Assembly (NCBI GenBank): GCA_011959805.1
Contig: BLMC01000033.1
Location: forward strand, 1 to 32,040
Source of the DNA: Lachnospiraceae bacterium
GTDB lineage: Bacteria > Bacillota > Clostridia > Lachnospirales > Lachnospiraceae
Reading direction: 5' to 3'
DNA: 32,040 nucleotides
Position numbers and translations under genes: made by a program. Below, one piece after another: positions 21,301 to 28,977 of this stretch (position 1 is its first letter; every line of letters begins with the position of its first letter). The notes beneath the pieces are model-generated. The model did no database searches, was not told the DNA's origin, and worked only from the letters and a program-made list of their open reading frames with translations.

Positions 21301-22034
21301 ATGAGACAGGTAAAATTACAGGTTTGAAATTTGATTTTGACGATGTTGAACAGCAAAAACTTAAAGATGTGGTTTGTCCAATTTGTGGTGGTGATGTTAT
21401 CAAAACATCTTTTGGCTATGGTTGCTCCAATTATAATAGGGATGATATAGAACATAGTTGCCATTTTTTTATTAATAATAAAATTGCAGGTATAAAAGTG
21501 TCAGATATGATTGTAAAGAAATTACTTAATAATAAAAAAACAGATATAGTAAAAGATTTTACATCAAAAAATGGAACTAAATTTGATGCAGCATTAAAAC
21601 TTACTGATAATGGACAAGTAATCTTTGATTTTCCAGATAAACCAGAACCAATAGAGACAAACCTTGCATGTCCGAGGTGTAACGTGCATAAACTAAAAAA
21701 GAGCCAGTGGTATTATGAATGTGTATGTGGATTTAAAGTTGGACATACAATTGCGCAGCTTACACTTACTGAAGATATTGTGCAAGAGTTATTTACAAGT
21801 GGAAAAACAAAAGATAGGCTAACAGGTTTTATTTCAAAAACGGGAAGTCCATTCGATGCATATTTAAAATATATAGATGAAAAAATACAATTTGATTTTA
21901 ATAATAATTTAAATGCATCATCAACAGAAAATGTGTTACCTATCTCTCAGCAATGGTTTGGCGACGAACCTGCATCAGACGAATATTGGGCATCTTTAAT
22001 GGTCGAAACAGTAGAAGAATCAACAAATCTTTAA
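18396..22034 (+). CDS. topB: DNA topoisomerase III (type IA) with five C-terminal zinc repeats
   Basis: Type IA topoisomerase that relaxes and decatenates single-stranded regions of DNA. The TOPRIM domain begins at once (IITEKPSVA, E9) and carries GDSGKEG (D105, E109). The cleavage-transfer tyrosine is Y335 in TTYPRTDAR. GSGIGTSATRAEII near 565-580 is a conserved core motif. From residue 694 to about 1168 there are five tandem repeats of about 100 residues, each starting with a CPxCGG-like zinc motif (Toprim C-terminal repeat type); the fifth is divergent. At 1212 aa it is far longer than E. coli TopB (653 aa). The start is TTG at 18396, preceded by GGGGGAAG; it gives MGKKLIITEKPS as in the family. 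Plasmid or conjugative origin is possible, but no mobilisation genes are near. Confidence 0.92.
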   Translation: MGKKLIITEKPSVAQDYAKVFQVSGKHNGYIENNTYVITWCVGHLVEMVYPEEYDDRYKKWTLQDLPFLPEKYKYGVIKNVKQQYDIVHTLLQRDDIDSVYWAGDSGKEGQTIEENIRNFGGVRQGMQEFRVWIDSQTETEIKRGMAQAKPMSDYENLGKSGIMRSIEDYAMGINFSRVMSIKYGKLLNDAAATKSYSAIAVGRVMTCVLGMVVNREREIRNFQETFFYRVVGDFTDANIEAEWKAVEGSMYFESTKLYKENGFKEKEDAEALISSFEGKEAIVKTLEKGISKKKAPLLFNLAELQAECTKRFKISPDQTLQIAQDLYEKKLTTYPRTDARVLTTAVANEIDKNLNQLKGYTPTQQFTDHILSNKLYTNIAKTQYTDDNKVTDHYAIIPTGQLTELGTLTPLQTKVFELIVRRFLSIFYPPAEYQTLKLVIGIEKESLFSNAKVLKVLGFLEVMGKTLEDAEEEDNIVDEKSKTDNSTFSKANESLEDSIKEKRNNSKKLLALADTLKQGDTLNINYFEVKDSKTTPPKRYTSGSMILAMENAGQLIEDEELRAQIKGSGIGTSATRAEIIKKLIRIGYLNLNQKTQVITPQNFGEMVYEVVAMTVPALLNPQMTASWEKGLDGITNGTVDVNEYRAKLEDFIRRETIQIRDKDLTNQIAIHINQFIGKGAKGLAVRRKLDIQCPLCGGDIITTSFGYGCGNYQKDGNGCNFAIGTVAGRDLSEEECIALVRDGHTSILSNFVSKQRKKFDAALILNKTEDGKAEITFDFSQVQPQVLEDVVCPDCGGQIMIKGFGYGCANYNPEVPESCKFGIGKIADKEITSTQVKELINNGITETIRGFKSKSGKKFDAVLVLEKGDDGRHTINFNFEKVEVKKIKDVVCPLCGGEIIQTPFGYGCANYNKLDENSCKFSIGKMAGKDISETQIKELLTNGKTSTIRGFKSKAGKKFDARIILNRDETGKITGLKFDFDDVEQQKLKDVVCPICGGDVIKTSFGYGCSNYNRDDIEHSCHFFINNKIAGIKVSDMIVKKLLNNKKTDIVKDFTSKNGTKFDAALKLTDNGQVIFDFPDKPEPIETNLACPRCNVHKLKKSQWYYECVCGFKVGHTIAQLTLTEDIVQELFTSGKTKDRLTGFISKTGSPFDAYLKYIDEKIQFDFNNNLNASSTENVLPISQQWFGDEPASDEYWASLMVETVEESTNL
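20475..21899 (+). repeat. Five tandem repeat units inside topB
   Basis: Units begin at the first Cys codon at 20475, 20772, 21072, 21375 and 21669 (residues 694, 793, 893, 994, 1092), so the period is 98-101 codons. The shared plan is CPxCGG, then FGYGCxNY, a third Cys, a K/L-rich helix, SKxGKKFDA, and a closing FDF. Unit 5 has CPRC and CVCG but loses FGYGC. Units 2 and 3 look most alike. Confidence 0.85.
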
Positions 22035-24740: not shown

Positions 24741-24775
24741 GTATATCTTGTTAATCAAAAATACTAGAAGACTTG

Positions 24776-24811
24776 AAAGTACCGTAATCTTTGGGATTGC
24801 GGTACTTTTTT
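24776..24811 (+). terminator. Terminator of the NifU-like/GGGtGRT unit
   Basis: A 14-bp stem (24776-24789 with 24795-24808, one G-T pair), a 5-nt loop and a T run to 24811. Confidence 0.9.
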
Positions 24812-25456
24812 CATGTTTAAATTGGAAGATAAATAATATGGTATAATTTTGTCAAAGATAGGAACAAAAGATATCACAGCTATCAAGATCAGATTCAATA
24901 ATGTTCTTATTGATTGGAAAAACTTTCAATAAGAATACAAGAGACATATAAGGTAGGCTGTACTAGACGGAACATTAAGGATTAGGAAAAACAAACTATC
25001 GTTGGTTTAACAAAAAGTAATGCAATGGCAACATGTATATAGCAGAAGAACAGATAGAAATAGAAAAGATACGACAGACATAGAAAGGCTATCTCAGAAC
25101 CATAAAAGGAGGTAGAGTGCATTGATATAGCATATATCAAACATTTGATGAACATACTTGAGAATGTTTGGCATAATGATGAGAACAAATAAGGAATTGT
25201 AGAATATGCGAAAAAAATGCCAAAAACTTAAGAGGAGCCTTTTCTACGTTTCAATTATGATGAATAATAAGTGGTTATAAGAAAACAATCAAAAAACTAT
25301 TGACTGAATATGAAAAAAGCAAATTGCTAATATTTGTTATATGGAAGAAATAATTGATAGATGCTGCCAGTCAGAAACGGTTTGGTGGTATTTTTATATT
25401 CATATTCTAAAGGCAGCAGTAATAAAGATAAGAAATCGGAACTGTTAAATACTCCA
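24812..25456. other. Non-coding, probably decayed DNA
   Basis: Stop codons interrupt all frames. A 10-bp inverted repeat TTCTTATTGA/TCAATAAGAA (24904-24913 with 24926-24935) is present. A good ribosome binding site (AAAGGAGGT near 25107) is followed by no proper frame, only a 28-codon stretch without a start. This looks like gene debris. I recognise no family. Confidence 0.5.
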
Positions 25457-25490
25457 AACTATTCGCTAAAGTATGCTTTAGCGAATAGTT
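25457..25490. repeat. Perfect 15-bp hairpin
   Basis: AACTATTCGCTAAAG (25457-25471) pairs perfectly with 25476-25490 around a TATG loop. There is no T run, and it lies upstream of a transposase relic. It may be a former insertion-sequence terminator or end, or a folded small element. Confidence 0.65.
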
Positions 25491-25619
25491 GTGGTGCCCA
25501 CTTATAGACATTTTGGGAATAAGCATAAGTGAAGATCGTCAACATGGTTTTGGGTCCACTGCGCAAGCCTGATATATCAATATGAATTGGAACGAGACTT
25601 TTTAAATTTAATGGAAAAA

Positions 25620-25887
25620 CCAGTTAATAAAATACTTTTTTCTATATCGATGATTGAAACGCTGTAATTCCTAAATGCCTTTTATTATGCATATCCTATG
25701 CAAAAATTATTCCAACTTTATAAACACTACTACTTCTTTAACTTTAAATCTTACACTAGAAAAACTACAATCACAACCTGTTTTTCTTTGTATTGATGGT
25801 ACGATGGTTTCGAGTTCGATAAAATTTCAAGAATACTGCAAAGTTTTCCGGCCATACCACAATAAATATTCACTGATTTTTATATAA
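25620..25887 (+). pseudogene. Transposase relic (IS4-like family)
   Basis: The frame at 25675-25887 encodes NYSNFINTTTSLTLNL, then SQPVFLCIDGTMVSSSIKF. This resembles the start of IS4-type transposases common in Lachnospiraceae, which carry FLCIDDTMVxKxGxKFE with the first catalytic Asp. In this copy the second Asp of IDDT is Gly. Just upstream a different frame reads AFYYAYP, matching the expected preceding segment and implying a frameshift. After residue 70 similarity ends in stops. No ribosome binding site. The family assignment is from memory of the motif, not a search. Confidence 0.5.
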
Positions 25888-26552
25888 CAATGCAAAATCT
25901 TCTATTTCCATGAGGTCAAGGCTTAAAAAGAATGATAATATTCTTCTTTGTATGAAATATAGATATTTATAACATATAGTAATACTATCCATTTAGATAA
26001 TCGAAACCTTATAGCTACATACAGGGTATTCACAAACATATTTGGAAGAAGAATCTGCGAATAAGGAAAATGACAGCAAATGCCTATTTTTCTGGAAAAT
26101 CAAAAAAAACTTAATGAATGTCTTAAAACAAATTGTTCAGTAACAAGAATATTATAAAGTGATATAGAAATAAAACAATATTTATTATTAGTTGCATTCT
26201 GTTATTACTCTTCTACTATGATTTCATTAATTTTATAAGTTTTATACTTTCTAGTTATATTAAATTTGAAAAATATAAATTTTAAGAGATTCTGTTTATA
26301 AATTGTGTTTTGTATTTTTTTTTGATGTGGTGAGGAGGTAGTTTTTGCGTAAATTTAAACATATTACGTAAAATATAATAGAATTTTTTTTAGTTTTTTG
26401 ACTTTTATTACTATTTACTTTTTCAAATGATTTATTTATTGTACAAAATTCAGTATTAGGAAAATATATTTTACATAATAAAATAGAAAAAGATTAAACG
26501 AATAATATTTAATTAAGCTAAAAGATTAATATTTTAATTTAAGATATTCTAA
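25888..26552. other. AT-rich region without a clear gene
   Basis: All frames are interrupted. AGGAGG at 26333-26338 is followed at 6 nt by TTG and an eight-codon frame ending at 26371, then by hydrophobic coding-like stretches in shifted frames up to about 26498. This could be a leader peptide or the remains of a small membrane-protein gene. A further TTACGTAA copy is part of the stretch around 26364-26371. Confidence 0.4.
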
Positions 26553-26624
26553 AACAAACGTGCAGATACTATAACTTAGAAATTATATCAACTGCACTCT
26601 TCTATTTAATCCTACACGTTTGTT
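26553..26624. repeat. Overlapping, mutually exclusive inverted repeats
   Basis: AACAAACGTG (26553-26562) is complementary to CACGTTTGTT (26615-26624). GTGCAG (26560-26565), which shares three bases with it, is complementary to CTGCAC (26592-26597). Two alternative hairpins can therefore form. The predicted promoter of the next gene lies downstream, so this may instead be the ends of a small element or a regulator site. Confidence 0.5.
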
Positions 26625-26644
26625 GTGACATAAAATGGAAAATA

Positions 26645-26673
26645 TTGAAAAAGAAAATTTAGTATGATATCAT
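26645..26673 (+). promoter_or_regulatory. Promoter of the MotA/FliG-like gene
   Basis: TTGAAA (26645-26650), a 17-nt spacer and TATCAT (26668-26673), leaving a leader of about 60 nt before the gene. Confidence 0.55.
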
Positions 26674-26740
26674 AAAAAATAAAATTACTTTTAAAATAAA
26701 TCAAAGTAATTTCCATCCAAATATTAGGAGGCAAAACAAA

Positions 26741-27550
26741 ATGGAAATAACATTAAATACAATTCTGAATCAAATGCGACTTGACGCTATTGAAAAATTT
26801 AAAAATACAGATAAACATCAAAATGAAATAGTTGATGCAGCAAAAAATATTATGATTCTTGCCAATCTTGCACGAAAAGAAGGACTGCTTTCCTTAGAAA
26901 GTATTGCTCAAACTATATCATCAAATTTTTTAAAACAGCTTATCATTCTAGTTGTAGATGGGACTTACCCAGAAATTATCATAGAAATTGCGACAAATAT
27001 ATATTGGACAAAAACTCCATCTGGTACAAATGCTATGATAAACTATATTTATCTTAGGGGTATGCTTGGAATTCAAAATGGAATAAACCCTAGATCATTA
27101 GAAGAAATTCTTCTTAGTCTAATGCCTAGTGAACAACAAAAAAATTATCACATACAAATGAAACTATTACATCAAAATAATGATGTCGATAAAATATTTC
27201 AGATTCATCCAAATTTTCAAGATGCAGAAATTTGGGAGTCTATTCATTCTCTGGAAACAATAATTAACAAACTATCAAATCGATGTATACAACGACTAAT
27301 ACGGGATTTGCAAAATCAGGATTTAGCTATTTGTATTTACGTGTTTGAACAGGATATTCGTAAAAAAATTTTGGATAATCTAAGTAAAGGATTATCTCAT
27401 GCTATTATAGAAGATGTTGCACTCTGCACATCAATTAGTGCACAAGATGTGTCTGCAAGTATTTTAAAGGTACAAGATACAATCAACTCATTATGGAAAG
27501 CAGGAGAAATCTACCAGCCAGATAATATAAATTCTTATAATGAAAACTAA
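26741..27550 (+). CDS. MotA-segment/FliG C-terminal-domain chimeric protein
   Basis: A 269-residue soluble protein. Residues about 36-85 (LARKEGLLSLE, then FLKQLIILVVDGTYPEII) match the cytoplasmic loop of flagellar stator MotA (ARREGLLALE, FLxxGLxLVVDGTDPE), but MotA's membrane helices are absent. Residues about 176-257 (NRCIQRLIRDLQNQDLAICI, EQDIRKKILDNLSKGLSH, DVSASILKVQDTINSLWKAGEI) match the FliG C-terminal domain. The torque-face LDDR of FliG reads LSNR here. It has AGGAGG at a 9-nt distance and its own promoter and terminator, so it looks intact and expressed. No flagellar or chemotaxis gene is in the window. Function unknown; it could be a scaffold built from motor parts. Confidence 0.75.
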   Translation: MEITLNTILNQMRLDAIEKFKNTDKHQNEIVDAAKNIMILANLARKEGLLSLESIAQTISSNFLKQLIILVVDGTYPEIIIEIATNIYWTKTPSGTNAMINYIYLRGMLGIQNGINPRSLEEILLSLMPSEQQKNYHIQMKLLHQNNDVDKIFQIHPNFQDAEIWESIHSLETIINKLSNRCIQRLIRDLQNQDLAICIYVFEQDIRKKILDNLSKGLSHAIIEDVALCTSISAQDVSASILKVQDTINSLWKAGEIYQPDNINSYNEN

Positions 27551-27555
27551 GATGT

Positions 27556-27593
27556 AAAAAGACCTACGTTTAATATTATCGTAGATCTTTTTT
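27556..27593. terminator. Terminator between convergent genes
   Basis: AAAAAGACCTACG (27556-27568) pairs, with one mismatch, with CGTAGATCTTTTT (from 27580), followed by T residues. A-rich 5' and T-rich 3' arms could serve both the MotA/FliG-like gene and the exporter gene. Confidence 0.75.
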
Positions 27594-27600
27594 ATTTAAC

Positions 27601-28977
27601 TTATTTTGCTTGTGACTTATCTTCATTCTTATTGACTAATTTTTTCTCATGACCTTTTACTAATATTTTTGTAATTTCAGGAAAAGGTTTTTTCGCATTT
27701 ATTGGAAATTCAACATATTCTTTAGACTTTGTATCAATATATAATAGTCTTAAATACTTTCCCGTTTCTGAAGATAAATTTCTAGCGGCAAGTCGTGTCT
27801 CAACAAGAGATTTCACAAAAGCAAACAAAATCGCAAATATCGGAACCCCAACAATCATGCCTAAAATTCCCCAAATTCCTCCGAAAAAAGTAATAGAAAA
27901 GATTACCCAAAAACTTGATAATCCAGTTGAACTTCCAAGAATTTTAGGTCCAATAATATTTCCATCTACTTGTTGAAGAATAATAACAAATATTGCAAAA
28001 TATACAGCCTTTAATGGATCAACAAAAAGAATTAATAATACCGAAGGAATCGCACCCAAAAATGGACCGAAAAAGGGTATAATATTTGTCACACCAATAA
28101 TTACACTAATTAATACACAAAAAGGCATTCCTAATATACTAGTTATCGCAAAACAAATCACACCAATAATGATAGAGTCTAATATCTTTCCAACAAAAAA
28201 TCCTCCAAAAGTTTTATGGGCAAAACGAACATTACTGATAAAACGATTTGCTCCCTCTACAGAACAAATAGAATAAATAATTTTTTTCGCTTGTGCAGCA
28301 AATAATTCTTTACTTGCCAACAAATAAATTGAAATAATAAAACCAATCACTAAATTCCAAACTGCTTTAAAGATAGAATAAACACTCATTGATACAGAAG
28401 TTATTACATTAACTACATTACTCAATTGTGACAACATTTTTGTAACATTATTAACACTATTGAGCTGAGGAAGCACTGTCGTATTAATAAATGTTGTCAA
28501 ATCCATAGAAGATTGATTGATAAATTCAATAACACTCTTTTCAAATTCTGGATTGTCTCCCAAAATTTTTGATATCCACATTATTATAGTATTAATATAA
28601 TTCGGAAATTGTTCTAAAATTGTCCGAATACTATTATAAATCTGAGGAATTACAATTGAAAAAAATGCATAGATTGCCCACAATACAAATACTTCTGTAA
28701 TAATTATCGACAAAAAACGCTTTGCTCCTTTTTTATGATCAATATTGAAAAATTCAAATATCGGGGTTGTAAAATTTCGTTCTGTTGCATTCACAAGTGG
28801 TGCAATTAAATATGCAAGTATAAATCCGTCAATAACTGGCATTAAAACTATAAATAATTTTTTTAAAGTTAATGATAAACTATCTAAATGAAAAATAACA
28901 TAATAGCTGGCGAATCCTCCTAAAATCACTAAAAAAGCTGTCAATCCCCATTTCACATAATCCTTGTTGCTTTTCAT
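27601..28977 (-). CDS. AI-2E family transporter (PerM/YdiK-like)
   Basis: A polytopic membrane protein of the AI-2E/PerM exporter family (458 aa; usual range about 350-450). Eight or so hydrophobic segments are visible: near 10-30, 38-60, 85-110, 200-225, and a C-terminal cluster. The family signature GVTNIIPFFGPFLGAIPS is at about 287-304. The following segment QQVDGNIIGPKILGSSTGLS is also characteristic. A large soluble loop lies between helices 3 and 4. A hydrophilic Lys-rich tail of about 70 residues closes the protein. The minus-strand ATG has AGGAGAG at 9 nt. Members export various small molecules or sodium; the substrate here is open. The gene is monocistronic. Confidence 0.9.
   Translation of the reverse strand: MKSNKDYVKWGLTAFLVILGGFASYYVIFHLDSLSLTLKKLFIVLMPVIDGFILAYLIAPLVNATERNFTTPIFEFFNIDHKKGAKRFLSIIITEVFVLWAIYAFFSIVIPQIYNSIRTILEQFPNYINTIIMWISKILGDNPEFEKSVIEFINQSSMDLTTFINTTVLPQLNSVNNVTKMLSQLSNVVNVITSVSMSVYSIFKAVWNLVIGFIISIYLLASKELFAAQAKKIIYSICSVEGANRFISNVRFAHKTFGGFFVGKILDSIIIGVICFAITSILGMPFCVLISVIIGVTNIIPFFGPFLGAIPSVLLILFVDPLKAVYFAIFVIILQQVDGNIIGPKILGSSTGLSSFWVIFSITFFGGIWGILGMIVGVPIFAILFAFVKSLVETRLAARNLSSETGKYLRLLYIDTKSKEYVEFPINAKKPFPEITKILVKGHEKKLVNKNEDKSQAK

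Follow-up and report, generated by a model that had tools for sequence, protein, structure and literature searches.

The window analyzed here, a 32,040-nt stretch of DNA, is contig C33 of a 4.25-Mb assembly that comprises 431 contigs and is 86.5% complete. It contains an ORF that encodes a soluble protein combining cytoplasmic parts of the stator protein MotA with the torque domain of the rotor protein FliG. The features of this locus are collected in Table 1. The original prediction had credited the gene with a strong AGGAGG site, a promoter and a terminator of its own, and the first of these is indeed in place. A promoter candidate was found as well, but sites of its kind were no commoner than in shuffled sequence (7 vs. 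10.3 expected). Likewise, an imperfect stem (AGACCTACG/CGTAGATCT, one mismatch) with a T run could be read by eye, whereas a terminator scan returned none.

Table 1. Features at the chimera locus (positions are those of the window; residues are those of the chimera)
Feature	Position	Strand	Basis
Soluble MotA-FliG_C chimera gene, 269 aa, ATG start	26741..27550	+	ORF, family matches, relatives in the genus
First MotA cytoplasmic segment, residues 22-85, including R45 and E53	26804..26995	+	NCBIfam PRK08124, E=1e-13
Second MotA segment (C-terminal cytoplasmic tail), residues about 90-139	27008..27157	+	PDB 6ysf, 8ucs
FliG C-terminal (torque) domain, residues 163-257	27227..27511	+	Pfam PF01706, E=4.9e-13
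AGGAGG ribosome-binding site	26726..26731	+	Read in the sequence
Possible sigma-70-type promoter, TTGAAA-17-TATCAT	26645..26673	+	Best site of the scan; weak
Possible terminator: imperfect 9-base stem, 11-base loop, T run	27560..27593	.	By eye
AI-2E family transporter, convergent to the chimera gene	27601..28977	-	Pfam PF01594, E=1.1e-46

The chimera gene sits among chromosomal genes, including those for the AI-2E transporter and LexA. As predicted, a Pfam scan of 10 other ORFs in the window identified no flagellar genes, and Rfam gave zero matches at gathering scores between positions 22000 and 32040. The ~2 kb upstream of the gene (24741-26740) contain neither an ORF of at least 80 aa nor an Rfam match, and a 70-aa ORF within them (25675-25887) might be a transposase remnant.

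The prediction had also suggested that the gene might act in a non-motile cell. A genome search for fliG, motA and flagellin, which it had put forward as a check, found all three and spoke against this view: fliG (E=6.2e-135) and motA both lie on contig C10, and three flagellin matches were found on contigs C107 and C46. Around fliG and motA, reading of the translations identified flgB, flgC, fliE, fliF, fliH, fliI, fliJ and flgE, in addition to motB, fliL, fliM, fliY, cheY, flhA and flhF and the chemotaxis genes cheB, cheA, cheW, cheC and cheD. Given this cluster and the flagellins, the host cell appears equipped to swim. The start of one gene in the same cluster (L040:12356-13081) resembled, by eye, a YcgR-type PilZ protein, and this cell may thus possess the common c-di-GMP brake in addition to the chimera.

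Domains and contact residues of the chimera

Residues of about 36-85 had been predicted to be MotA-like and residues of about 176-257 to resemble the FliG C-terminal domain, and profile searches bore out both assignments (Table 1). The Pfam FliG_C score of 49.7 bits exceeded the gathering score of 23.3. The other Pfam profile named in the prediction, MotA_ExbB, did not match the window protein at E≤1, though the NCBIfam models for MotA (PRK08124, 1e-13), MotP (2.4e-13) and PomA (5.8e-11) did, as did the NCBIfam fliG model (5.1e-12). When PDB was searched using phmmer, the window protein matched the MotA structures 6ysf and 8ucs (both chains of the latter) with an E of about 2e-12 and in two pieces, query residues 29-84 corresponding to MotA 76-131 and query residues 58-139 to MotA 180-260. 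The second piece indicates that the C-terminal cytoplasmic tail of MotA, missed in the original prediction, is also present. Conversely, when ordinary MotAs were matched by a profile of the soluble form, the match fell into two pieces and skipped the membrane-spanning stretch between them. The best 19-residue Kyte-Doolittle mean was 1.56 for the window protein, compared to 2.92 for the MotA and 1.66 for the soluble FliG of the same genome, and no membrane helix was indicated by this measure, in agreement with the single soluble chain that had been predicted. By hydropathy and by the two-piece match, the four transmembrane helices of MotA are absent. A weak MgtE_N match, below its gathering score, overlapped FliG_C at residues 151-216 of the window protein and was also seen in 4 of 19 family members. 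Taken together, the MotA matches, the FliG_C match and the hydropathy show that in the window protein the FliG torque domain follows the cytoplasmic face of MotA, and that the occurrence of both parts in one soluble chain is real.

In E. coli, residues R90 and E98 of MotA contact D288/D289 and R281 of FliG, according to two reports (PMC12505986, PMC7564593). The equivalent residues of the window protein, R45 and E53, are both kept. Among 24 family members, the Arg90 position was occupied by Arg in 19 and by Lys in 3 more, and the Glu98 position by Glu in 21 and by Asp in 1; both residues were kept in 41/41 MotA rows, with the MotA of the window's genome counted twice. In place of the FliG torque residues K264, R281, D288, D289 and R297, the window protein has Y, G, E, D and S, thus keeping two of the five charges. 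Counts for the FliG half covered 20 members, with L164 and L083 near-identical and L116 outside the counts. Each of the two acidic positions was acidic in 16 of these, Lys was found at K264 in 11, Arg or Lys at R281 in 9, and Arg at R297 in 9, and all five charges were kept in only 3. Within the window's subclade the three basic torque residues are all lost and the MotA face is intact. These counts suggest that the half that would dock on the rotor is more constrained than the half that would dock on the stator, and that rotor docking is the stronger part of the role proposed below. In the window's subclade, the stator-docking half may have changed its partner or its mode of binding.

Distribution, genomic context and selection

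The chimera had been regarded as an orphan; it is instead a member of a family that occurs sporadically in Lachnospiraceae. Within the genus, 7 of 38 genomes gave matches at E≤1e-15, namely the window's own, G007, G016 (two copies), G022, G033, G060 and G061 (27% identity). The gene has relatives in the genus at 54-65% identity. The G060 copy is broken: its frame is split in two, and about 22 codons have been lost. Using chimera and soluble-MotA profiles, we found soluble MotA in 14 of 397 sampled Lachnospiraceae genomes, in 14 genera (G000, G425, G173, G103, G348, G411, G369, G367, G140, G084, G417, G273, G212, and G204). A carrier was called where a profile match spanned the junction at which MotA has its membrane part (in G204 the match spans 2-88 of 109). 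The soluble-MotA profile matched 50 genomes, and in the remaining 36 the match ended by position 68, as in plain MotA. The FliG_C part was not evident in G084, G417, G204 or the second gene of G425; a FliG_C-like end was found in G273 and G212. All seven members of a first alignment (A1) matched the NCBIfam MotA and fliG models, and in a second (A2) Pfam FliG_C was matched by 19/19 members and each of NCBIfam MotA and fliG by 18/19, rates above those expected by chance. Some flagellated gut bacteria, to judge from their sequences, carry a small soluble stator-rotor chimera protein.

A single-sequence scan of genome contigs found zero relatives. A profile scan found 198, and the best 80 of these mostly matched the MotA or the FliG stretch only. 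In a sample of 391 Clostridia genomes, the window's own was the only match at E≤1e-16; since 20 of the unmatched genomes were listed (15 in Lachnospiraceae) and 370 unlisted, this gives only a rough range beyond the family. A Defluviitaleaceae protein (L116), in which the first MotA segment is joined to FliG_C via a different linker, may represent an independent case. In its genome (G835), contigs C31, C72 and C77 gave two long fliG matches, and three frames of 245, 107 and 238 aa matched the FliG C-terminal domain over short stretches. In G367, two divergent chimera genes lie on the same strand about 3 kb apart with other ORFs between them (L158:7455-12070). A soluble-MotA protein of G425 that lacks FliG_C (contig C110, L196:7314-7943) ends in LNQDEIMELL, which resembles the starts of FliM (LSQSEIDSLL) and FliY (LSQDEINALL) of the window's genome, both of which are CheY-binding motifs. 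Shuffling reproduced the pattern, which had been chosen after being seen, in 3/20000 cases for the protein's own tail and in 12/2000 across all 24 family proteins. A search of viral contigs gave 9 pattern matches and no relative, and PHROGs matched 0 of 19 members. ZorA, of the Zorya defense system, is a MotA-like protein. A Zorya-like identity was rejected, as no PADLOC model matched the window protein at E≤0.01; the 19 members gave two weak single matches (E of 0.0041 and 0.0054), both to other models.

Of the 397 Lachnospiraceae genomes, 211 possess fliG, and these include all 14 soluble-MotA carriers, spread over 14 genera (hypergeometric p=1.2e-4, a value that ignores relatedness and genome completeness). 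Full-length fliG was also present in 3/3 further carriers in named records. Within the genus, fliG was found in all 7 carriers (as a partial frame of 192 aa in G061) and in 35 of 38 genomes, and for the latter reason the genus adds little to the association. As a whole, these counts support a link of the family with flagella.

No conserved gene neighborhood was found for the family by eye. The chimera gene is convergent to an AI-2E transporter gene in four genomes (the window's, G016, G022, and G060). Of 27 AI-2E loci found, 14 were examined, and a chimera gene was present at 4 of these; at the other 10, the 0.3-1.5 kb beside the transporter showed other ORFs and no chimera match. One of the genomes with such a locus, G007, has the chimera gene elsewhere. 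The variability of this site suggests that the chimera gene comes and goes. Genes for T4SS coupling proteins adjoin the G411 gene (L051) and flank the G204 gene on both sides (L199), and a Tn916-type integrase occurs near the G173 gene (L156), which suggests that family members may be transferred by conjugative elements. By reading of translations, no mobile-element genes were seen at the other family loci. Genes for a hybrid histidine kinase and a response regulator precede the G033 copy, and beside the G411 copy lies a receiver-domain protein with a sub-threshold Pfam score. In two genomes (L081:5882-8864 and L083:3763-8774), chimera genes are found downstream of metallo-beta-lactamase-fold genes and small genes unmatched in Pfam.

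Of the 15 pairs among the six intact genes of the genus, 8 were computable and gave dN/dS ratios of 0.10-0.22. Overall, dS was near saturation: the other 7 pairs were uncomputable, and only one of the 8 had a dS below 1 (window vs. the G016 copy on C23; dS 0.94, ratio 0.21). These ratios point to purifying selection and, with open frames persisting at 54-65% identity, agree with the earlier impression that the gene is maintained; a non-functional gene was rejected on the dN/dS values, despite the near-saturated dS. The window protein shares 51% identity with the corresponding segment of its own genome's MotA and 34% with its FliG. When a tree was built from the MotA part, a branch with support of 98/93 separated every one of the 24 soluble rows from 24 MotA rows, a result that fits a single origin of the soluble form; the tree used the first 24 of 42 MotA rows, each consisting of two joined pieces, and omitted E. 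coli MotA. In the FliG_C-part tree one origin was not shown (4 changes, many long branches), and long branches occurred in both trees. On the basis of these identities, the tree split and the purifying selection, we rejected the possibility that the gene is a recent fragment of a flagellar operon.

Possible roles of the chimera

We propose that the chimera is a soluble accessory protein that regulates the flagellar motor, a clutch or brake at the stator-rotor contact, and give this reading a probability of about one half. It would have been built from duplicated motor parts, i.e., the cytoplasmic torque face of MotA and the C-terminal domain of FliG. For the MotA-like half, the most likely docking site would be FliG's torque helix in the rotor; the FliG_C-like half may fit between MotA subunits of the stator. 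Either as a competitor at the normal contact between stator and rotor or as a bridge across it, the chimera would uncouple or lower torque. We infer both that the protein binds the motor and which way it acts. The proposal retains the predicted idea of a repurposed motor part or interaction switch but not its non-motile setting, as swimming genes are present. We counted in its favor the presence of fliG in 14/14 carriers and in the 3/3 further ones, the kept R90 and E98 equivalents, the acidic FliG positions, the dN/dS ratios, an engineered fusion (see below) and the L196 motif; we counted against it the absence of flagellar neighbors and of a conserved neighborhood, the retention of all five FliG charges in 3/20 members, the sporadic distribution and the one broken copy. 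A bolder reading, possible though doubtful, is that the family constitutes a new class of regulators, in which flagellated Lachnospiraceae, partly via mobile elements, keep soluble mimics of motor parts that plug both sides of the contact and turn torque off. The mimics would comprise the torque face of MotA, FliG_C and, in one member only, a CheY-binding motif like that of FliM/FliY. On this reading, the chimera would be nature's equivalent of the fusion engineered to trap the stator-rotor contact.

The association with fliG would be equally expected if the chimera aided the motor as a stator chaperone or recruiter, holding MotA or FliG while stators are assembled or exchanged, and FlgX of Campylobacter, reportedly a stator chaperone (PMC6686046), would provide a precedent. 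We consider this unlikely, since the chimera has no transmembrane or MotB-like part with which to follow a membrane stator and at least 197 of the 211 fliG-bearing genomes do without it. The chimera might also have left the motor, its halves binding each other within or between chains as a scaffold or switch elsewhere, e.g., behind a two-component system. The missing basic torque residues of the window's subclade, the signaling neighbors of the G033 and G411 copies and the absence of flagellar neighbors in the window point in this direction, but fliG accompanies every one of the 14 carriers and the MotA contact residues are retained, and we regard such a departure as improbable.

Quite improbable, in our estimate, is a mobile-element cargo that halts the swimming of its host, for example in favor of conjugation, and that later became chromosomal in the window's clade. 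The T4SS coupling-protein genes, the Tn916-type integrase and the variable AI-2E site are consistent with such a cargo, whereas no genes of this kind were seen at the other loci by reading of translations, the window copy sits among chromosomal genes, and neither viral contigs nor PHROGs yielded a relative. Finally, the split G060 copy and the long branches in both trees might reflect a functionless, decaying by-product of duplicated flagellar genes; this is very unlikely in view of the intact frames and low dN/dS ratios of the diverged copies and of the one soluble-MotA group that extends across 14 genera.

Comparison with known motor proteins and regulators

Known brakes and clutches of the motor are unrelated PilZ or enzyme-like proteins; YcgR and MotI are PilZ proteins, and MotI is a clutch or brake protein. 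In PMC3000366, PMC10140304 and PMC12713396, the glycosyltransferase-like clutch EpsE and the brake YcgR are described as acting at FliG or MotA. The chimera resembles EpsE, YcgR and MotI in its proposed role only, as a soluble protein with FliG and/or MotA as its site of action. It differs from them in that it is built from the motor parts themselves, and neither a glycosyltransferase-like domain nor a PilZ domain (Pfam, E≤1) was matched. With the stator subunit MotA it shares the two cytoplasmic segments and the Arg90/Glu98 contacts, but it bears FliG_C, lacks the membrane helices and reaches only 50.8 bits against the NCBIfam whole-protein cut-off of 340. With the switch protein FliG it shares the C-terminal domain, corresponding to positions 233-326 of the 338 in TIGR00207, but scores 45.8 bits against a cut-off of 226.7, shows no Pfam match to the N-terminal or middle domains, and, in the window's subclade, has lost the basic residues.

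Among the matches listed in the open-access literature there was no natural MotA-FliG fusion, and the sole fusion was an engineered one. This C. sporogenes MotA(1-262)-FliG(239-333) protein (PDB 8UCS) was made to trap the stator-rotor contact; in it, two neighboring MotA subunits grip FliG_C, and the torque helix lies in the cavity (PMC11302681). Its two parts and their order equal those of the natural chimera; it differs in that it keeps the membrane helices and was made with MotB (PMC11302681), whereas the chimera is soluble and has no membrane helices. If our proposal is true, a single natural protein that mimics both contact faces in soluble form would offer a genetically simple means of uncoupling the motor, and would show that motor tuning can evolve from components of the motor itself.
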